A stretch of DNA of 64,000 nt from Gemmatimonadaceae bacterium. Its GTDB lineage: Bacteria > Gemmatimonadota > Gemmatimonadetes > Gemmatimonadales > Gemmatimonadaceae. The stretch covers positions 1 through 64,000 of the forward strand of contig DASYSS010000101.1 of assembly GCA_036003045.1 (NCBI GenBank). The letters run 5' to 3'. The notes below the pieces were generated by a model that saw nothing but the letters and a program-made list of their open reading frames with translations, did not search any database and was not told the origin of the DNA. This document shows positions 18,297 to 28,078 of the stretch, piece by piece. The translations under genes and the position numbers were made by a program. Position 1 is the first letter of the stretch. Every line of letters starts with the position of its first letter.

Positions 18297-18503
18297 TGAG
18301 ACTCTCCCTGTCGCTGACGTGAGCTGAAAAACACGCCAGGTGGGAAGGCAAGTCGCACGCCTCACGGCCCACGGCTGACCCGAAGCTCCGGTCGAGTGCG
18401 CTAGCGTCAGTTGCTCATCGCGCCTGGACTTGCGAGAATTCCATTCGCGGGCAATTGCCCGAACGACGCAGATCCGGTCGCCTCTTCGTCACAATCCCCG
18501 AGT

Positions 18504-19475
18504 ATGGCAGAGTCGACTGTCAGTCGCCGAGAGTTTCTCGTGCAATCGAGCTCGTGCGCGGCGCACCTCGCGCTCGCGGCGACCGTCATGCCGACAGCGG
18601 CGCGCACGCTCTGGTCGGCCCCGGTGGGACGCGTCGTGGCGCGAGAGCCGTTCGGAAACCTCGAGCGAATCTCCGACGGCGTCTGGGCTCTCGTGTCGAC
18701 TCCGCTCAACGGAGACAGCACGACGGTCTCCAACGGCGGAATCATCGTCGGAAAGGACGCGGTGTTGGCAATCGAAGGATTCAACCGCCCCGCCGGCGCG
18801 CAATGGTTGGCCGGCAAGGCGCGCGAGCTCACGGGTCGTTGGCCGACGCACGTCGTCCTCACGCACTATCACGCGGACCACGCGAATGGAGTCGCGGGCT
18901 ATCTCGCCGGGGGCGACCACCCGGTCGTCCGCTCCACGGCGCGCACTCGCGACTTGGTCATCGAGCGCAACAAACCCGAGGACACGTCGCGCGTAGCGGC
19001 GGTTCGCGACTCGGTGGTGATCACCGCCACCGAACCGACGACATTGGATCTCGGCGGGCGGTCGGTTCGGGTGATTCCTCGGCTTGGCCACACGGAAAGT
19101 GACATTTCGTTGGAACTCGACGAGCCTTCGATCGTTTTTGCTGGCGATTTGTTCTGGAACGCCATGTTTCCGAACTTCGTCGACGCGATTCCAACGAAGC
19201 TTGCGGCATCGGTGCGAGCGCTCCGGCGTACGCGCGACACGCTGTACGTCCCGGGCCACGGTCCGCTCGGACGTGCCGCGGAGTTCGACCGGTATGTGGC
19301 GATGCTCGACGAGGTCGAGAAAGCGGCGCGGGCGGGACTCGCGGCCGGGACCTCGCCCGTCGATCTCGGAGCCAAATTCTCGCTCCCGGCGTCGCTCGGT
19401 GAGTGGACGCTCTTCAACAAAGTCTTCTATCAACGTGCCTTTGAGGCGTGGTACCGCGAGCTGAAACCGGCGTGA
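18504..19475 (+). CDS. Tat-exported MBL-fold metallohydrolase
   Basis: 323 residues from ATG 18504, chosen because it starts the twin-arginine signal VSRREFLVQSS followed by a hydrophobic stretch. Metal motif THYHADH (H-x-H-x-D-H, about 122-128), downstream His in GHTES and Asp in FAGDLFW, and the final His in VPGHGPLG. These are the ligands of a dinuclear MBL site. Substrate unknown: families with this pattern include glyoxalase II-like, quinoprotein-relay and lactonase proteins. Followed after 109 bases by another Tat-exported protein on the same strand. Confidence 0.85.
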   Translation: MAESTVSRREFLVQSSSCAAHLALAATVMPTAARTLWSAPVGRVVAREPFGNLERISDGVWALVSTPLNGDSTTVSNGGIIVGKDAVLAIEGFNRPAGAQWLAGKARELTGRWPTHVVLTHYHADHANGVAGYLAGGDHPVVRSTARTRDLVIERNKPEDTSRVAAVRDSVVITATEPTTLDLGGRSVRVIPRLGHTESDISLELDEPSIVFAGDLFWNAMFPNFVDAIPTKLAASVRALRRTRDTLYVPGHGPLGRAAEFDRYVAMLDEVEKAARAGLAAGTSPVDLGAKFSLPASLGEWTLFNKVFYQRAFEAWYRELKPA

Positions 19476-19584: not shown

Positions 19585-20259
19585 ATGAACGATCGTCCAC
19601 CAACTGAGCTGGAGCAGGGCCGCCGCGCATTTCTCGGCAAGATCGCCGTCGGAGCAGCCGGCCTCTCGATGGCCGCGGCGATCGATCCGTGGGAGGCATG
19701 GGCCCAGGCTCGCGCCAACGGCGCACCGGACGGCGAGCATTGGCTCGACAATCTGAAGGGCACGCACAGACAGCTCGTCGATGCCTACCAGCCGAACGAA
19801 GGGTTCCCGTTTGCGTTCGTGTGGTCGTTCGGGCTGGTGCAGCCGCCGCCGGCGCAGATCGGCACGGTCATGGTGCTGCGCCATTTCGCGATGCCCTTCG
19901 CGTTGAACGACGCGATGTGGGCGAAATACAAGATCGGCGAGGGGATCAAGTTCAACGACCCCGCGACGAAGGCGCCCGCGGTCAAGAACGTCATGTACAA
20001 GGCGAAGCCCGGCACGCTGCCAATCGACGACATCGCGATCGACAAGCTCATGGCCAAGGGCACGATCTTCGGCGCCTGCAACGTCGCGCTGCAGTTCCTG
20101 AGCGGCGAGTTTGCCGCCAACGCCAAGGTGTCAAAGGAAGCGGCCGCGAAGGAATGGGCGGCCAACTTGGTTCCGGGAATCCCCCTCATCCCGTCGGGGA
20201 CCTGGGGAGTGAACCGGGCACAGCAAAAGGGATGCACCTACTGCACCGGCGGCGGTTGA
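19585..20259 (+). CDS. Tat-exported protein, DsrE-like candidate, with C-terminal CxxC
   Basis: 224 residues. Twin-arginine signal (QGRRAFLGKIAVGAAGLS), cleavage near EAWAQ. The mature part has MVLRHFAMPFALNDAMW, then GTIFGACNVALQFLS, VPGIPLIPSGTWGVNRAQQKGCTYC; the pattern of a central Cys followed by a PxG...vxxAQxxG strand resembles DsrE/DsrF proteins, but this is a weak visual match and the family is not certain. The last residues are CTYCTGGG, a CxxC. Together with the upstream MBL-fold protein a periplasmic sulfur or redox role is possible. A well-formed terminator follows. Confidence 0.7.
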   Translation: MNDRPPTELEQGRRAFLGKIAVGAAGLSMAAAIDPWEAWAQARANGAPDGEHWLDNLKGTHRQLVDAYQPNEGFPFAFVWSFGLVQPPPAQIGTVMVLRHFAMPFALNDAMWAKYKIGEGIKFNDPATKAPAVKNVMYKAKPGTLPIDDIAIDKLMAKGTIFGACNVALQFLSGEFAANAKVSKEAAAKEWAANLVPGIPLIPSGTWGVNRAQQKGCTYCTGGG

Positions 20260-20292
20260 TCGGAAACCCCGGGTGATTCACCCGAGAAATGC

Positions 20293-20339
20293 ATGGAAAG
20301 AGGCGTCTGGCCGGCTGGCCGGGCGCCTCTTTCCATTTC
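20293..20339 (+). terminator. hairpin terminator
   Basis: Thirteen-base perfect stem (20293-20305 with 20324-20336) with an inner GC-rich loop (CTGGCCGGCTGGCCGG), followed by TTC. It ends the 18504-20259 unit. Confidence 0.75.
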
Positions 20340-20536
20340 AGCTCCGGCGGCCCCGTGAATGCATCACTCATGAAGGGTTGCCAAGGAGCCGTAAACGCTT
20401 GATAGTGTTGGTGCGTATGCATCGTGACGCCGGGGGTGTTCAACCCCTAGGACTTGGCGTGCGCACCTGAAATAGTCCGTGTAGCCGCACGAAAACATTG
20501 ACACGACAGACCGGCTTCCCCGGGAGATTGTCGAGC
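20340..20536. other. intergenic region before the DUF1592 operon
   Basis: No gene is seen. It holds a small hairpin-like dyad GGGGT/ACCCC (20433-20447) and a TTGACA-like hexamer at about 20498, but no convincing -10 box at the right distance. The promoter for the four-gene operon starting at 20537 must lie here. Confidence 0.4.
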
Positions 20537-23032
20537 ATGAAGATCGTGTTTGCATCGGTTGCGGCAGTCAGCGCCGCGGTGGCCTTTTCGGTCGGCACCG
20601 CGACTGGAACGCGAGCCCCTAACTATTTACGGCCCAACGCGTCCCCGACGAGACCTCTCGTAAAACCTCCGGCCAAGCACGCCGCGCGCTCAGCCAAGCC
20701 CGCGCCCTCGCCGACGATTCCGATCAGCGCACTCAACGCGGTCGTCGACCAGTACTGCACCGATTGCCACAACGACCAGATGATGGTCGGCAATCTTTCA
20801 CTAGAGCACTACGACGTCGCAGCCGCGCCATCGCGATGGGCCGCATCGGAAAAGATGATCCGAAAGTTGCGCTCCGCGATGATGCCTCTCCCCGGCGCGC
20901 CGCGTCCGGGCGGTGACACGCTGACGCAGCTGGTCGCGACCATCGAGCAGGTCATCGACCGCGCGGCGAAACCGAATCCGGGCAGTCGCACGTTCCAGCG
21001 GCTGAACCGCGCGGAATACGAAAACGCCGTGCGCGATCTGATCGGACTCGACGTGACCGCCGGAGATTGGCTGCCGCTCGACACGAAGAGCGCCAACTTC
21101 GACAACATCGCCGACGCGCAAATCCTGTCGCCGACGTTGCTCGACGCGTACCTCAACGCCGCGTCGGCCGTGAGCCGCCTCGCCGTCGGCGACAAGAACG
21201 CCGCGCTCTCGCAGACGACCTACAAGTCGTCGCCGTTCGCGTCGCAGCATCCGTGGGATCACGTCGACGGCGCGCCGTTCGGCACTCGCGGCGGCATCGT
21301 CACGAAGTACGTCTTTCCCGCCGACGGGATGTATCAGTTCCGCATGGTCATCGAGGGCGGTGTCGGCGTGCACCTCGAGGACGTGGACATCTCGGTGGAC
21401 GGCAAGAGCGTCTCGCTCTTCCACTACGAGAAGGGCGTGAATCGCACCGCCGCGTCGGCCGACGCGCCGCTCGGCGCCGATCTCTATACCACCGATCCCA
21501 TCGCGTTGAAGGCGGGTCAGCAGATGGTGTCGGCCGCGTTCGTTCGCCGCACCGACGGCCCCTACGAAGACCTGATCAGGCCGCACGACTGGTCGATGGC
21601 ATCGAACGGCAACGCGAGCGCCGGCACGACGACGCCGCCGCACATCATGGAATTGACGGTCATCGGGCCGTCGAAGATCACGGGCGTGTCGGACACGAAG
21701 AGCCGGCGCATGATCTTCTCCTGCCGTCCGTCGAAGACGCTCACTGAACGCGCCTGCGCCGAGCAGATCGTCACCCGGCTCGGCACGCGCGCCTACCGCC
21801 GTCCGCTGACGAAGCACGACGTCGACGGCCTGATGGCGTTTTACACGCAGGGCGCGAAGAGCGGGGGCTTCGAGGAAGGCGTACGGTCGGCGCTCCAGGC
21901 AACGCTGTCGAGTCCGTATTTCGTGTTCCGCTTCGAGCCGGTGCCGGCGAACGTCGCGCCGGGACAGAACTACCAGATCAGCGACATCGATCTCGCGTCG
22001 CGGCTGTCGTTCTTCATCTGGGGAAGCATCCCGGACGATCAGCTGCTCAAGCTCGCCGAACAGAAAAAGCTTTCCGACCCGAAGACGCTCGATCGCGAGC
22101 TGCACCGCATGCTCGCCGATCCGAAGTCCGAGGCGCTGGCGTCTCGCTTCGCGGCGCAGTGGCTCCGGCTTCAGGACCTCGACAAGGTTCACCCGGACGC
22201 CTACCTGTTCCCCGACTACGACCAGCAGCTCACCGACGACATGCGCCGGGAGACGCAGCTCTTCTTCCAGGACGTCGTCAGGAACGACCGAAGCATCCTC
22301 GACTTCTTCAATGCGAACTTCACGTACGTGAACGAGCGGCTGGCCCGTCACTACGACATTCCAAACGTCTCCGGCTCGGACTTCCGCCGCGTCGAGTATC
22401 CGGACAGCAACCGCCGCGGAATCTTCGGACAGGGCGCCTACCTCGTGCAGACGTCGATCGCGGACCGCACGTCGCCGGTGCTGCGCGGCAAGTGGATCAT
22501 GGAAGTGCTGATGGACATGCCGCCGCCGCCCCCGCCGCCCAACGTTCCGACGCTCGATGAAACGGCCGCCGGGAAGGACGGTCATCCGCTCACCACGCGC
22601 GAGCGGATGGAGATTCATCGCAAGAATCCGACGTGCAACACGTGTCACCAGTACATGGACCCGATCGGTCTCGCGATGGATAACTTCGACGTCACCGGCA
22701 AGTGGCGGTATCGCGAGAACGCCATGCTTCTCGATACGCGCGGCAATCTGTACGACGGCACGCCGATCCAGACGCCGGGCGATCTGACGACGGCGCTGCT
22801 CAAGCGGCCGATCCCGCTGGTGCGCGCGTTCGCCGAGAACCTCATGGCGTACGCGTTGGGACGTCGGGTCGAGGACTTCGACCAGCCGACGATCCGCGCG
22901 ATCGCCAAGCAAGCTGAGACCAACGACTACCGATTCTCGTCGTTCGTGAACGGGGTCGTGCGCAGTGATGCATTCAGGATGAAGCGAGCGGAAGACGCAG
23001 TGGCCGCAACCGACACCAAAGACAAGCACTAA
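20537..23032 (+). CDS. Exported DUF1592/DUF1587/DUF1588/DUF1585 protein with two CxxCH motifs
   Basis: 831 residues from ATG 20537. Signal peptide (MKIVFASVAAVSAAVAFSVG). Heme-type CTDCH at residues 74-78, then a DUF1587 block (RTFQRLNRAEYENAVRDLIG), a beta-rich insert, DUF1595 (RLGTRAYRRPLTKHDVDGL), DUF1592 (DLASRLSFFIWGSIPDDQLL, FVNERLARHYDIP-like stretch), DUF1588 with a second heme motif CNTCH (700-704), and DUF1585 (VRAFAENLMAYALGRRVEDF). This is the full planctomycete-cytochrome-like architecture. It is probably a periplasmic c-type cytochrome; substrate unknown. The start of a four-gene operon; the next gene begins 27 bases later and is the DUF1552 partner usually found with it. Heme binding is inferred from CxxCH. 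Confidence 0.88.
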   Translation: MKIVFASVAAVSAAVAFSVGTATGTRAPNYLRPNASPTRPLVKPPAKHAARSAKPAPSPTIPISALNAVVDQYCTDCHNDQMMVGNLSLEHYDVAAAPSRWAASEKMIRKLRSAMMPLPGAPRPGGDTLTQLVATIEQVIDRAAKPNPGSRTFQRLNRAEYENAVRDLIGLDVTAGDWLPLDTKSANFDNIADAQILSPTLLDAYLNAASAVSRLAVGDKNAALSQTTYKSSPFASQHPWDHVDGAPFGTRGGIVTKYVFPADGMYQFRMVIEGGVGVHLEDVDISVDGKSVSLFHYEKGVNRTAASADAPLGADLYTTDPIALKAGQQMVSAAFVRRTDGPYEDLIRPHDWSMASNGNASAGTTTPPHIMELTVIGPSKITGVSDTKSRRMIFSCRPSKTLTERACAEQIVTRLGTRAYRRPLTKHDVDGLMAFYTQGAKSGGFEEGVRSALQATLSSPYFVFRFEPVPANVAPGQNYQISDIDLASRLSFFIWGSIPDDQLLKLAEQKKLSDPKTLDRELHRMLADPKSEALASRFAAQWLRLQDLDKVHPDAYLFPDYDQQLTDDMRRETQLFFQDVVRNDRSILDFFNANFTYVNERLARHYDIPNVSGSDFRRVEYPDSNRRGIFGQGAYLVQTSIADRTSPVLRGKWIMEVLMDMPPPPPPPNVPTLDETAAGKDGHPLTTRERMEIHRKNPTCNTCHQYMDPIGLAMDNFDVTGKWRYRENAMLLDTRGNLYDGTPIQTPGDLTTALLKRPIPLVRAFAENLMAYALGRRVEDFDQPTIRAIAKQAETNDYRFSSFVNGVVRSDAFRMKRAEDAVAATDTKDKH

Positions 23033-23059
23033 CCAACCCGACTCGGGGGAAGGCGGACC

Positions 23060-24457
23060 ATGCAGATCCTCACTGGAAAGGCGTTGCCTCGTCGGACGTT
23101 CTTGCGCGGGCTGGGAGCGGCGGTCGCCCTCCCCTACCTCGACGCGATGGTGCCGGCGCTCGGGGCGCTGACCAAACGCTCGGTCACCTCGGCGCCGGGC
23201 GAGAAGACGCGCTTCGTCGCCATCGAGTCGGTTCACGGCGCCGCCGGCAGCAACATCTGGGGCGCGTCCAAGAACCTCTGGGCGCCCGCCGCGACCGGCA
23301 AAGACTTCGTGCTCAACCCGGACGGTGCGCTCATCCCGCTCGAGCCGTGGCGCAAGACGCTCACGATCATCAGCAACACCGACACGCGCATGGCCGAAGC
23401 GTTCGACGCCCCGGAGATCGGCGGCGACCACTTCAGGTCGAGCGCGGTCTTCCTCACCCAGTCGCACCCGAAGCAGACGCAGGGATCGGATCTCTACGTC
23501 GGCACGTCGATGGATCAGCTGATCGCCCGCCACATCGGCGGCGACTCGGCGATCCCCTCGATGCAGCTCTGCATCGAGAACCTCGACCAGGCCGGCGGCT
23601 GCTATTACAACTACGCGTGCGCGTACACCGACACGATCAGCTGGGCAAGCCCCAGCGAGCCGCTGCCGATGATCCGCAATCCGCGCACAGCCTTCGACCT
23701 GCTGTTCGGCGCGGGCAACAACAACGCCGACCGGGTCACGCGCCGCAAGGCGAATCAGAGCATTCTCGACTGGATCACCGGCGAGACGAATTCTCTGAAG
23801 CGCCAGCTCGGTCCTGCGGACCAGCAGCGTCTCGACAAATACCTGCAGGACATTCGTGAGCTCGAGCGCCGAATCCAAGCTGTCGAGGCGCGCAACTCCA
23901 GTGGTGAATCGCGCGAGCTGCCCGAGGCGCCGGTCGGCGTTCCGGACTCCTTCGCCGAGCACATGCAGCTGATGTTCGATTTCCAGGTGCTCGCGTTCCA
24001 GTCCGACATGACACGCGTGTTCTCGTTCAAGACGGGCCGCGACGCGTCGAGCCGCCAGTTCCCCGAGAGCGGCACGGACAAGGGCTTCCATCCGGCGTCG
24101 CACCACGGCGGCCGCGAGTCGGCGATCTTGGACTTCAACAAGATCAATCGGTACCACGTGAGCCTGCTGCCGTACTTCCTCGACAAGCTGGCCAACACGA
24201 TGGACGGGGAAAAGAGCCTGCTCGATCAGACGATGATCATGTACGGCTCGCCGATGGCCGACGGCAACATTCACAACCACCGCCGCTGCCCACTGCTCCT
24301 GCTCGGACATGGCAACGGACGCATTGCCGGCGAGATGCACCTCAAGGCGCCCGACGGAACGCCGATGGCCAACGTGTTCCTCACCTTGATGCACAAGCTC
24401 GGCTTGAACAACAACAGTTTCGGCGACAGCACGGGCGAGTTCGCACTCAGCGTCTGA
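23060..24457 (+). CDS. Tat-exported DUF1552 protein
   Basis: 465 residues. Twin-arginine signal (LPRRTFLRGLGAAVALPYLD). Later motifs SHPKQTQGSDLYVGTSMDQL, QSILDWITGETNSLKRQLG, LDKYLQDIRELERRI and HHGGRESAILDFNKINRYHV, and near the C-terminus MADGNIHNHRRCPLLLLGHG, are characteristic of DUF1552, a family distantly like sulfatase/alkaline-phosphatase-fold proteins. It is nearly always next to a DUF1592 gene. Tat export suggests folding or cofactor loading in the cytoplasm. Function unknown. Ribosome site GGGGAAGG precedes the ATG. Confidence 0.88.
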   Translation: MQILTGKALPRRTFLRGLGAAVALPYLDAMVPALGALTKRSVTSAPGEKTRFVAIESVHGAAGSNIWGASKNLWAPAATGKDFVLNPDGALIPLEPWRKTLTIISNTDTRMAEAFDAPEIGGDHFRSSAVFLTQSHPKQTQGSDLYVGTSMDQLIARHIGGDSAIPSMQLCIENLDQAGGCYYNYACAYTDTISWASPSEPLPMIRNPRTAFDLLFGAGNNNADRVTRRKANQSILDWITGETNSLKRQLGPADQQRLDKYLQDIRELERRIQAVEARNSSGESRELPEAPVGVPDSFAEHMQLMFDFQVLAFQSDMTRVFSFKTGRDASSRQFPESGTDKGFHPASHHGGRESAILDFNKINRYHVSLLPYFLDKLANTMDGEKSLLDQTMIMYGSPMADGNIHNHRRCPLLLLGHGNGRIAGEMHLKAPDGTPMANVFLTLMHKLGLNNNSFGDSTGEFALSV

Positions 24458-24469
24458 GGAGGACGCGGC

Positions 24470-26563
24470 ATGAAACGAGTCAGCCTGTTCGGTGCGGCGC
24501 TGCTGTGTGCGGCGAGCGCATCGGCATTCGCGCAGCAAAAGGACACGCGCGGCAAGGTCACGCTCCCGATGCCGCCGGCGCGAACGCCGGCGGTCGCCGA
24601 TGCCGCGCAGAAGGGCGATGCCGCGGCGGTAAAGAAGCTCATCGCGCAGGGCGCCGACGTGAACGTGCCCGAAGGCGATGGCATGACGGCGCTGCACTGG
24701 GCGGCGGAGCACGGCGACTCGGCGATAACGACGATGCTGCTTCGCGCTCACGCCGACGTCAAAGCCGCGACGCGCATCGGCTCGTATACGCCGCTCGAGC
24801 TCGCGAGCCGCAGCGGCTCGGCGGCCGTGGTGAAGGCCCTTCTTGCCGCCGGCGCCGATCCGAATCGCCCCGACGCAAGCGGCGCGACCGCCGTGCACCT
24901 CGCGGCGGCGGCCGGGAATGCGGACGCAGTGTCCGCGCTCCTCGAAAAAGGCGGAAACCCGAACGCGCGCGAGAAAGAGTGGGGACAGACGCCGCTCTTC
25001 TTCGCCGCTGAGAATAATCGCGCAGCCGCGATCAAGGTGTTGCTCGCGAAGGGCGCCGATCCCGCGGCGCGGTCGAACGTGATGAATCTTCAGGAAGACG
25101 CGGCGCGCGATCAGGCCGGTACGAAGAAGCGCAACGAGGTCCTCATCGCGTTCATGCCGCAGGCACGAAAGGATTCGGTCGCAGCGGCGGCCAAGGCCCA
25201 GGCTCACGCGGACTCGATCGCCGCCGCCGAAGCCGGTCCGAACGCCGCGCAGTTTGCGCGGCGCGGCGGTGGCGGCGGCGGCGGCGGTGGTCGAGGCGGC
25301 CCGCAGCCAAAGGGTCCGTTTACGATGGAACAGGTTCAGGCCGCGATCGACTCCGGTCGCGTCGTCGAAGCCATGCGCCCCGCGTCGAACGCGCAGGTGA
25401 CTGAAGAAGTCGACACGCTCAACGGCGGCGTCGCGGGCTACAACGGAACGGTGGGCGGCGTCGGCGGCTTCACGGCGCTGCATCACGCGGCTCGCCAAGG
25501 GAACGTCGAAGCCGCGCGCGCGCTGCTCGACGGCGGCGCGGACATCAATGACACGAGCCGCGTCGATCACACGACGCCGCTCCTCATCGCGACGATCAAC
25601 GGGCAGTTCGACGTCGCGATGCTCCTCGTCCAGCGTGGCGCGAATCCGAACATCGCCAGCAACGTCGGCATGACGCCGCTCTACGCGACGCTCAATACGC
25701 AGTGGGCGCCGAAGTCGCGCTATCCACAGCCGCAGGCGATCCAGAACCAGAAGACTCCCTACCTCGAGCTGATGAAAGCGCTGCTCGACGCGAAGGCCAA
25801 CGTCAACGCGAAACTCGGCACGCAGCCGTGGTATTTCGCCTACAACAACTGCGGCAACGCCAACTGCGGGCTGGAGTATCTCGACGGTTCGACGGCGTTC
25901 TGGCGCGCGGCGTATGCGGTTGACGTTGACGCCATGAAGCTCTTGGTGAAGTACGGCGCCGATCCGAACATTCCGGCGATCCGCGCGCCGCAGGGTGGCG
26001 GCCGTGGTGGTCGCGGCGGGCGTGGCGGCGGAGCGGGTCGTGGTGGCGCTCCTCCGGGCGACATCGCCGCGTTCGACTCGGCGACGCGCGCCGCGCAATT
26101 CGCCGGCGGTCGTGGCGGCGGCGGCGGCCGCGGTGCCCAGCCGATTCTCGACCCGGCAATCGATTCCGCGGCGAAGGCGGCGCCGGTCGGCCTCGGCGTC
26201 TATCCAATCGACGCGGTGGCGGGCGAAGGCTACGGCAACGGCTTCGCTGGTAACTCTCACCGCCACGCGCCAGATGGCTGGATGCCGGCGATGCGGTACC
26301 TCGTCGAAGAGTTGCACGCCGACGTCAACCAGCGCGACGCGCGCGGCATGACGCCCCTGCACCAGGCGGCCGCCCGCGGCGACAACGAGATGATCCTGTA
26401 CCTCGTCGCGCACGGCGCCGATCCACGAGCCGTGTCACGAGACGGACATACGACGGTGGACATGGCGAACGGGCCGGTGCAGCGACTACGTCCCTTGCCC
26501 GAGACGATCGCGCTGCTCGAGAAGCTCGGCGCGAAGAACCAGCACCATTGCGTGTCCTGCTGA
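24470..26563 (+). CDS. Secreted ankyrin-repeat protein with Gly/Arg-rich linkers
   Basis: 697 residues. Signal peptide (MKRVSLFGAALLCAASASAF, then AQQ). Ankyrin repeats in three blocks: about 45-175 (DGMTALHWAAEHGD, ASGATAVHLAAAAGN), about 325-440 (GFTALHHAARQGNVEAARALL, GMTPLYATL), and about 600-680 (GMTPLHQAAARGDNEMILYL). Between them lie Gly-rich linkers (RRGGGGGGGGGRGG; GGRGGRGGRGGGAGRGG). The protein ends HHCVSC. The ribosome site GAGGAGG lies at the end of the DUF1552 gene, 12 bases from its stop, so co-translation is likely. A scaffold for the DUF1592/DUF1552 pair is a plausible inference. Confidence 0.88.
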   Translation: MKRVSLFGAALLCAASASAFAQQKDTRGKVTLPMPPARTPAVADAAQKGDAAAVKKLIAQGADVNVPEGDGMTALHWAAEHGDSAITTMLLRAHADVKAATRIGSYTPLELASRSGSAAVVKALLAAGADPNRPDASGATAVHLAAAAGNADAVSALLEKGGNPNAREKEWGQTPLFFAAENNRAAAIKVLLAKGADPAARSNVMNLQEDAARDQAGTKKRNEVLIAFMPQARKDSVAAAAKAQAHADSIAAAEAGPNAAQFARRGGGGGGGGGRGGPQPKGPFTMEQVQAAIDSGRVVEAMRPASNAQVTEEVDTLNGGVAGYNGTVGGVGGFTALHHAARQGNVEAARALLDGGADINDTSRVDHTTPLLIATINGQFDVAMLLVQRGANPNIASNVGMTPLYATLNTQWAPKSRYPQPQAIQNQKTPYLELMKALLDAKANVNAKLGTQPWYFAYNNCGNANCGLEYLDGSTAFWRAAYAVDVDAMKLLVKYGADPNIPAIRAPQGGGRGGRGGRGGGAGRGGAPPGDIAAFDSATRAAQFAGGRGGGGGRGAQPILDPAIDSAAKAAPVGLGVYPIDAVAGEGYGNGFAGNSHRHAPDGWMPAMRYLVEELHADVNQRDARGMTPLHQAAARGDNEMILYLVAHGADPRAVSRDGHTTVDMANGPVQRLRPLPETIALLEKLGAKNQHHCVSC

Positions 26564-26584: not shown

Positions 26585-26836
26585 ATGCCGATTTACGATT
26601 ACGTTTGCCGCGCGTGCGGGCACGAGTTCGAGGCCCTCACGCGCGGTTCGTCTTCGAAGCAGCCGAAGTGTCCCGAGTGCCAATCGGAGGACGCCGAACG
26701 CTTGCTCTCGATGCCGCGGGTCAAGTCTGAGACGACCAAGGACCTCGCGATGCGAGCCGCGAAACGCCGCGACGCCCAACAGGGAGCAGATCGCGTCAGG
26801 GCCCAACGGGAATACGAAGCGAGTCACGACGACTGA
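26585..26836 (+). CDS. FmdB-family zinc-ribbon protein
   Basis: 83 residues. N-terminus MPIYDYVCRACGHEFE with a CxxC pair and a second pair in CPECQ, the putative regulatory zinc-ribbon of FmdB. C-terminal part is charged (AAKRRDAQQGADRVRAQREY), predicted helical. Cytoplasmic. It is 21 bases after the ankyrin gene and may belong to its operon. Role unknown; small FmdB proteins have been linked to transcription of amidase/formamidase genes in some bacteria. Confidence 0.88.
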   Translation: MPIYDYVCRACGHEFEALTRGSSSKQPKCPECQSEDAERLLSMPRVKSETTKDLAMRAAKRRDAQQGADRVRAQREYEASHDD

Positions 26837-26848
26837 GGCCGGTGGGCC

Positions 26849-26904
26849 GGTAGCCGGTAGCCGGTAGCCGGTAGCCGGTAGCCGGTAGCCGGTAGCCGGT
26901 AGCC
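26849..26904. repeat. tandem repeat, 8 copies of 7 bp (GGTAGCC)
   Basis: Eight exact copies of GGTAGCC, preceded by GGTGGGCC. It starts 12 bases after the FmdB stop and lies 38 bases before a terminator. One of several related GG..CC repeats in 26.8-37.2 kb. Confidence 0.97.
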
Positions 26905-26941
26905 GGTGGTTCATCGAGAATTCGCGGATCACTCCAAAACG

Positions 26942-27000: not shown

Positions 27001-27058
27001 ACCGGTTTCAAAACCGGTCCACCGGTCCACCGGTCCACATGTCCACCCGTCCACCCGT
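27001..27058. repeat. inverted repeat plus 8-bp tandem repeats
   Basis: ACCGGTTT-CA-AAACCGGT (27001-27018) is followed by five 8-bp units CCACCGGT, CCACCGGT, CCACATGT, CCACCCGT, CCACCCGT (27019-27058). The array abuts the stop codon (27059-27061) of the leftward gene. Confidence 0.95.
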
Positions 27059-28078
27059 CTACGGCTTCTTCTCCCCCGCGACGAGCATCTTCACGTGGTC
27101 CTGCGCCAGCTGTAGGCCACCTTCCTCGGGCGTCACGCGCCCGTCGCCGTTTGCGTCGAATCCGGCCATCAACTGCTCCGACATTGACGCCATTCGGCTG
27201 ACCAGCGCGGCCGCGTCGGCGGGCGACGTCGCCGCCTGAACCTGCTTCGCGATCGCGATGACAGAATCCGCGCGCATCGCGCTGTTCTTCGCCGCCTGCG
27301 CGATATGCGCCGCGTGCGTCTGCACGTTCTGCGAGGCACCCGGCGCCTTCGCCGCAAGCTCGATGTGGGTCGCCGCGCCGATCGCCGCCTTCTTCATTCC
27401 GTAGCCGAGTCCGGGGCCCGTCGGCACGATCGTCGGGTCGAGCGCGTTGAGAACGTGCCCGGCGTGGAGCTTCATCGCGTCGAGGTTGTTCGGCTGCCGG
27501 CCGGCCAGACCCGCGTGCTGAATCGCGACCTTGGCCTCGTTGATCGCGACCGTGAGCAGCCCATCGCCGTTGGGCGTGTCGTTGAACGCGTTGACCACGT
27601 GGCCGATGTGCGTGCCAACGGCCCCTGGTGGGAGATCCGCGGGGGGAATGACGTTTACGTGCGGTGGTGGCGGTGGAAGAAGGCCGGGAGTCGGCACGCC
27701 GCTGATCTCCGCCACCATCGCGTCGAAATCCTTTCGCAGCGCGGGGTCGACGCTCACGAGATAGATCTTGTGCTCGTAATCCCCCTCGGTCATCCCGTTG
27801 TGGTGCAGGATCTCGGCGATCTGGCTCCTCAGGCTGTCACGAAGCTCCGCCTGGGACTCGGGCTTCGTGTTCCTGATCGAAGCGAGCCGAACCGCGCTCG
27901 AGTCGCGCGCGACGCCGATCGCGACGTGCGTCTTGGCGAACGTCATCAGATCCTCGTGACTCATCGCCTTCGCGGCGGCCGCCGGCGCGGGACTTCCCGC
28001 GGGCGTCTGCGCGACGATTGGCGATGCGGCCGCGAGCACGACCACAGCAGCACTGGCAACGATGGGCGAACGACGCAC
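27059..28078 (-). CDS. Exported protein with EF-hand-like calcium motif
   Basis: 339 residues from a GTG start at 28078, preceded by GGGGGAA; longer frames have no signal. Signal peptide MRRSPIVASAAVVVLAAASP ending IVAQ. The mature part is helix-rich with repeated His-Ala segments (HVVNAFNDTPNGDGLL, HAGHVLNALDP, THAAHIAQAAK). An EF-hand-like loop DANGDGRVTPEE lies close to the C-terminus. Proline-rich LLPPPPPHVNVIPP separates two parts. Likely periplasmic; function unknown. Its 3' end abuts the repeat array 27001-27058. Confidence 0.8.
   Translation of the reverse strand: MRRSPIVASAAVVVLAAASPIVAQTPAGSPAPAAAAKAMSHEDLMTFAKTHVAIGVARDSSAVRLASIRNTKPESQAELRDSLRSQIAEILHHNGMTEGDYEHKIYLVSVDPALRKDFDAMVAEISGVPTPGLLPPPPPHVNVIPPADLPPGAVGTHIGHVVNAFNDTPNGDGLLTVAINEAKVAIQHAGLAGRQPNNLDAMKLHAGHVLNALDPTIVPTGPGLGYGMKKAAIGAATHIELAAKAPGASQNVQTHAAHIAQAAKNSAMRADSVIAIAKQVQAATSPADAAALVSRMASMSEQLMAGFDANGDGRVTPEEGGLQLAQDHVKMLVAGEKKP

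Follow-up and report, generated by a model that had tools for sequence, protein, structure and literature searches.

Do three tightly spaced genes of a Gemmatimonadaceae bacterium encode one secreted system, and if so, what might that system do? The question is raised by positions 20537-26563 (+ strand) of the window, that is, the whole stretch of 64,000 nucleotides analysed here, where a DUF1592-type diheme gene, a DUF1552 gene and an ankyrin gene follow one another. The DUF1592-DUF1552 pair is already known, and the ankyrin gene appears to be a third member not described in the literature searched. No paper naming DUF1592 and DUF1552 together was found in the open-access journal literature searched, nor does any paper found there assign a function to the pair, in keeping with a preliminary description of this DNA that had called it a pair without known function.

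Gene unit and surroundings

The three genes form a closely packed operon, with intergenic gaps of 27 bp between the DUF1592 and DUF1552 genes and 12 bp between the DUF1552 and ankyrin genes, and the pair is present in one copy in the source genome (Table 1). Genes were called by a simple script. The operon had been proposed in the preliminary description on the basis of tight spacing, and the three + strand ORFs bear this out. Upstream of the operon, the hairpin region (20288-20345) folds at -40.3 kcal/mol compared with -19.6 kcal/mol for shuffled sequences (z = -6.65). Forward terminator-like sites were sought inside the three genes and none was found, and no RNA element reached its gathering threshold.

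Table 1. Coordinates, in the window, of the three genes and of the sites and domains discussed in the text
Feature	Position	Strand	Basis
Terminator-like hairpin, between upstream gene and operon	20291..20337	+	RNA fold
DUF1592-type diheme c-type protein	20537..23032	+	831 aa; Pfam; AlphaFold model pLDDT 86
First heme-c motif CTDCH, residues 74-78	20756..20770	+	Invariant in phylum alignment
Jelly-roll domain, residues ~225-383	21209..21685	+	Foldseek, CBM35/36/6-like
Second heme-c motif CNTCH, residues 700-704, in PSCyt3	22634..22648	+	Invariant
DUF1552/HXXSHH protein, Tat-exported	23060..24457	+	465 aa; Pfam, Arg11-Arg12, Foldseek
His124 codon, at sulfatase nucleophile position	23429..23431	+	Alignments
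HxxSHH motif, His344-His349, putative metal ligands	24089..24106	+	Phylum-invariant
Secreted ankyrin-repeat protein, pair-linked family	24470..26563	+	697 aa; Pfam, alignment, co-occurrence
C-terminal CxxC, Cys694 and Cys697	26549..26560	+	72/73 strong members

Two genes lie upstream of the hairpin. The nearer one (19585-20259, +) encodes an exported protein with a Tat-like start, a weak likeness to the thiosulfate dehydrogenase TetH (30 bits against a cut-off of 300) and a CxxC of its own near the terminus (CTYCTGGG), and the farther one (18411-19475, +) encodes a probably exported protein of metallo-beta-lactamase fold resembling, below cut-off, the metallohydrolases of quinoprotein relay systems. 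Both were rejected as operon members, given the intervening hairpin and the presence of metallo-beta-lactamase-like matches near few other loci. Directly 3' of the ankyrin gene is a small gene for an FmdB-type zinc-ribbon protein (26585-26836, +), which was likewise rejected as a fourth member since it was seen only in the window and in a congener (locus L032), no similar gene being found in the other loci. It is followed by a perfect 7-bp tandem repeat, GCCGGTA, in about nine copies (26846-26907) and by a separate 8-bp array (27013-27059). On the opposite strand, an open frame of 1870 aa (20801-26413, -) spans all three genes and is probably a shadow of high-GC codon use.

Across loci, the flanks contain TonB/SusD, creatininase-like, PQQ dehydrogenase, peptidase and other genes, and since these vary, no substrate is indicated by them. 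SusC/D-like genes occur near about 28-30 of 166 loci, a count uncorrected for background and uneven across lineages.

Co-occurrence of the ankyrin gene with the DUF1592-DUF1552 pair

Among 200 genomes of the phylum, 76 encode DUF1552 and 77 encode DUF1592; the two sets of genomes overlap almost completely, and the copy numbers of the two families are near-equal, reaching 10-12 per genome. A set of 80 loci from the phylum contained 86 complete DUF1552 genes; on the same strand, 82 of these have a DUF1592 neighbour, 77 an ankyrin neighbour and 74 both, and the ankyrin gene follows at a median spacing of -2.5 bp. Exceptions to the full trio are mostly contig-end truncations. One of the others (L071) is probably an ORF-calling artefact, a second (L091) has three genes inserted within the trio, and in a distant subfamily (L076, L081 and L082) the ankyrin gene is divergently placed. 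The insertion in L091 (2673-6708, +) consists of three tandem genes for weakly GDSL/SGNH-like hydrolases, situated between the DUF1592 and DUF1552 genes. In a separate scan of 80 named loci, which represent the closest relatives only, the ankyrin family was present in 76, and the remaining four run off a contig edge. The labels of these named loci are Gemmatimonadota, Acidobacteriota (with Vicinamibacteria among them) and a few others, the trio occurring in Acidobacteriota-labelled loci as well. Five loci (L122, L147, L161, L162 and L175) are labelled Euryarchaeota or Gammaproteobacteria, yet their trios are very like those of Gemmatimonadota, and the labels may be wrong.

As an independent check, the tail motif of the ankyrin protein, D[ML]AN[GS]P, was searched as DNA in the 200 genomes. 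It was found in 68 of the 76 genomes with DUF1552 versus 9 of the 124 without, the latter being the background level, and a reversed-pattern control was found in 12 of 200 (Fisher P 6e-34 for the association with DUF1552, with genomes treated as independent despite kinship). Pairwise distances among the three proteins are correlated (r 0.81-0.86), and 26-29 well-supported splits are common to each pair of trees. The ankyrin gene, which the preliminary description had placed with the pair, is indeed tied to it, so that the refuting outcome named there, absence of the ankyrin gene beside the pair in other genomes, did not come about. The recurrence of DUF1592 with DUF1552 also holds. All three families keep to one gene order, their trees agree, and they move together, tandem copies included. 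Four loci (L128, L135, L180 and L188) carry tandem double DUF1592-DUF1552 pairs, with a single ankyrin gene seen.

The pair also occurs without the ankyrin gene. On a Planctomyces plasmid the place of that gene is taken by one for a 3-keto-disaccharide hydrolase, the operon running DUF1587-DUF1592-DUF1552-3-keto-disaccharide hydrolase with PSCyt1-DUF1587 as a gene of its own. On Sphingobium plasmids, genes for cytochrome c' and cytochrome b561 lie beside the pair and no ankyrin gene was found there; the DUF1592 protein of these plasmids is shorter, without the first heme domain and without the jelly roll.

Features of the three proteins

The DUF1592 protein matches five Pfam domains in the order PSD3-PSD5-PSD4-PSCyt3-PSD2, all above cut-off and with E values down to 4e-46, within an overall architecture of signal, cytochrome c domain, PSD3, jelly roll, PSD5, PSD4, PSCyt3 and PSD2. 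Both CxxCH motifs are invariant in the 79 aligned members, as is Met116 downstream of CTDCH, the pattern of His/Met cytochromes c. The second motif, together with His694, is also kept in nine of nine diverse members, including those of Novosphingobium, Planctomyces and Sphingobium. PSCyt3 is the most conserved domain, with the lowest entropy of all, and among the folded domains variation is greatest in the N-terminal cytochrome and in the jelly roll, from which we infer that the second heme would form the functional core, the first serving as an electron relay that can be replaced. The jelly roll resembles carbohydrate-binding modules of families CBM35/36/6 (Foldseek probability 1.0, E 5e-3, target TM up to 0.64). 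Neither the AlphaFold model as a whole nor the conserved heme core in its C-terminal part matched a structure in the PDB, so catalysis by DUF1592 is an assumption. The source genome encodes cytochrome c assembly genes.

The DUF1552 protein matches the HXXSHH/DUF1552 family (E 2e-83, 280.8 bits against a cut-off of 30) and begins with the Tat-type N-terminus MQILTGKALPRRTFLRGLG, in which the twin arginines of RRTFL are invariant (72 of 72 aligned members), so that the Tat export ascribed to it earlier is well founded. The preliminary description had suggested an assembly of a cytochrome, a redox or Tat-folded enzyme and a scaffold. Heme is predicted for DUF1592, with its invariant motifs, but not for DUF1552, in which there is no heme motif, and any redox function therefore rests on DUF1592. 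Sequence searches with single sequences or profiles retrieved no solved-structure homologue of DUF1592 or DUF1552. The model of DUF1552 (pLDDT 82.6) matched sulfatases and alkaline-phosphatase-type proteins in Foldseek over its full length (E 3e-4, probability 1.0), a match that is partial at 9-12% identity and a TM of about 0.35, and suggests an alkaline-phosphatase/sulfatase-like fold. In a weak profile alignment (P 0.002, probability 13%), HFRSSAVFLTQ falls on the sulfatase motif CxPSRxxLLTG, and the invariant His124 occupies the place of the Ser/Thr/Cys nucleophile. The same region aligns, also weakly (P 0.0009, probability 23%), on an invariant His in DUF1501; an earlier profile comparison with fewer sequences was weaker. 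The HxxSHH motif is retained throughout the phylum, and among 11 diverse homologues His124, His344 and His405 are invariant and His348 nearly so. A metal site formed by His/Asp ligands is proposed, putatively, and because of the His at the nucleophile position DUF1552 is more likely to provide a metal or substrate site than to be an ordinary hydrolase.

The ankyrin protein (Pfam ankyrin repeats, E 3e-61) has a Sec-like signal and ends in HHCVSC. Its sequence relatives mark it as a family of its own and not as a generic ankyrin protein: the repeats and a tail, T.DMANGP.QR..PFPET..LLE.LG..NNH.C.SC, are conserved across 38 aligned members, and CxxC closes the sequence in 72 of the 73 strong members and supplies the sole cysteines past the signal region in 43 of them. 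Of 72 family members, 68 carry a signal-like segment, and most members have export signals on all three proteins, in agreement with the earlier suggestion that the ankyrin partner is exported too. As for the other traits then listed for this protein, the terminal CxxC is held by the family, but the Gly/Arg linkers and the HH pair are peculiar to close relatives. In the distant subfamily the ankyrin neighbour is without the CxxC, and likewise in Novosphingobium (L192). The CxxC tracks no cysteine of a partner, as Cys181/187 of DUF1552 and Cys396/407 of DUF1592 are equally conserved beside CxxC-less ankyrins. A heme-c site at the CxxC was rejected, as no His follows it in the main family. In one distant-subfamily locus (L082, 10675-13329, +), the ankyrin is fused to a domain with a heme-like CVSCH motif and weak squalene-cyclase similarity. 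An anti-phage defence system was also considered and rejected: the PADLOC matches were confined to the ankyrin protein, where they arose from the repeats, and the other two proteins gave none.

A proposed extracytoplasmic module and its relation to known systems

Given the computed gene unit, its co-occurrence, the conserved motifs and the export signals, we infer, with a probability of roughly 0.5, an oxidoreductase module that is based on heme, works outside the cytoplasm and has an ankyrin protein as its dedicated partner for assembly or delivery. The three genes would constitute one conserved extracytoplasmic module, their products putatively forming a complex. DUF1592 would be a diheme c-type oxidoreductase with the PSCyt3 heme as its conserved core, its N-terminal His/Met cytochrome c domain would hand electrons to the respiratory chain, and its jelly roll would bind a carbohydrate-like substrate. 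DUF1552, presumably leaving the cytoplasm folded through the Tat pathway as a metalloprotein of alkaline-phosphatase/sulfatase type, would give a metal or substrate site to its redox partner. The ankyrin protein would help to assemble or activate the heme enzyme, as AnkB does KatB, and its flexible C-terminal CxxC might deliver electrons or metal.

The ankyrin protein may be a scaffold, a maturation factor or a delivery factor, and it is possible, though we hold it to be the lesser chance, that it acts only transiently in maturation or in heme or metal delivery and stays outside the working complex. Ankyrin partners of heme enzymes are documented, namely AnkB-KatB, the ankyrin-KatE operon of Leptospira and Cj1386-KatA; Cj1386 ferries heme to KatA, and AnkB enhances catalase activity (PMC10294975; PMC11442138). 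Such a role would suit the free C-terminal CxxC, which fits a thiol or metal carrier, the loci with two pairs and a single ankyrin gene, and the lineages that manage without one. However, in most loci each pair has a single ankyrin gene of its own and the trees agree, which would be expected of a stoichiometric partner, and at about 600-750 aa the conserved repeat protein is larger than a simple carrier would be expected to be.

Rather unlikely is an active sulfatase- or phosphatase-like DUF1552 hydrolase working on glycans, with DUF1592 supplying binding and electrons for another step. The Foldseek match, the CBM-like domain of DUF1592 and the sulfatase genes near PSCyt genes in Verrucomicrobia (PMC5615132) are consistent with it, while the position of the Cys/Ser/Thr nucleophile holds an invariant His in the profile alignment and in 11 of 11 diverse members. 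The same His enters a bolder and equally doubtful proposal, that of a new class of extracytoplasmic oxidoreductase in which a sulfatase-fold metalloprotein, its nucleophile lost to His, is joined to a diheme protein of new fold, and an ankyrin scaffold passes electrons or metal through its CxxC arm, with PSD1-DUF1501 pairs as a parallel.

It is improbable that sugar oxidation by the pair yields a 3-keto sugar for cleavage by a 3-keto-disaccharide hydrolase. The Planctomyces plasmid operon places such a hydrolase after DUF1587-DUF1592-DUF1552, and four hydrolase matches lie elsewhere in the source genome, but no second clear case was seen in the neighbourhoods of about 160 loci, the hydrolase occurs in 163 of 200 genomes whatever their trio status, and several trio genomes are without it (e.g. 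G013, G173, G034 and G052). We rejected this pathway as a general role, the hydrolase being unlinked to the trio here. Ankyrin repeats are common and readily gained, but that the ankyrin gene is an unrelated, hitch-hiking neighbour is barely credible in view of a specific family with a conserved tail, the co-occurrence statistics, the congruent trees, and overlapping genes in several families and in loci labelled as another phylum.

The preferred reading, a heme-based oxidoreductase module with a dedicated ankyrin partner, concerns proteins without a known function. Some environmental bacteria encode PSCyt/PSD proteins dozens of times over, and the PSD1 and PSC2 domains appear 41 times each in Rhodopirellula (PMC2754498). 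A fixed third partner gives a foothold on these proteins. Many bacteria of soil and water have the trio as a recurrent unit. In addition, the tentative fold assignment of DUF1552 with its odd His and the cytochrome c'/b561 swap in Sphingobium lead to testable predictions on the hemes and their electron acceptor, on a metal bound at the His site and on whether the ankyrin protein is required.

The closest functional likeness is to AnkB-KatB of Pseudomonas, the katE operon of Leptospira and Cj1386-KatA of Campylobacter, in which an ankyrin protein is encoded with or serves a heme enzyme. AnkB is periplasmic, and partners of the AnkB/Cj1386 type raise the activity of the enzyme or supply heme to it; here, too, an exported ankyrin protein is encoded in an operon with a heme-motif protein. 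Those systems differ in serving a catalase instead of a diheme c-type protein and in having no DUF1552, and they are likened by description, not by sequence. With the sulfatase/alkaline phosphatase superfamily, DUF1552 may share its predicted fold and, as we read it, candidate His/Asp metal ligands in a similar order, but it differs in the invariant His at the nucleophile position; identity is very low, and sequence search does not recognise the relation. The Sphingobium operon has the same core pair in the same order, with a shorter DUF1592 and separate cytochromes. Finally, He et al. 2017 (PMC5615132) described, for Planctomycetes and Verrucomicrobia, PSCyt/PSD proteins encoded beside conserved but uncharacterised genes; the PSCyt genes sit beside two families of unknown genes whose function is unreported, and CBMs in PSCyt proteins were noted earlier in the same work. 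The present trio has in common with that set the PSCyt/PSD domains, the cytochrome c motif, an unknown neighbour and carbohydrate-binding domains. Ankyrin is mentioned neither in the main text of that study nor in any other paper found, whereas in the present trio the pair has a constant third gene, for an ankyrin protein that ends in CxxC.
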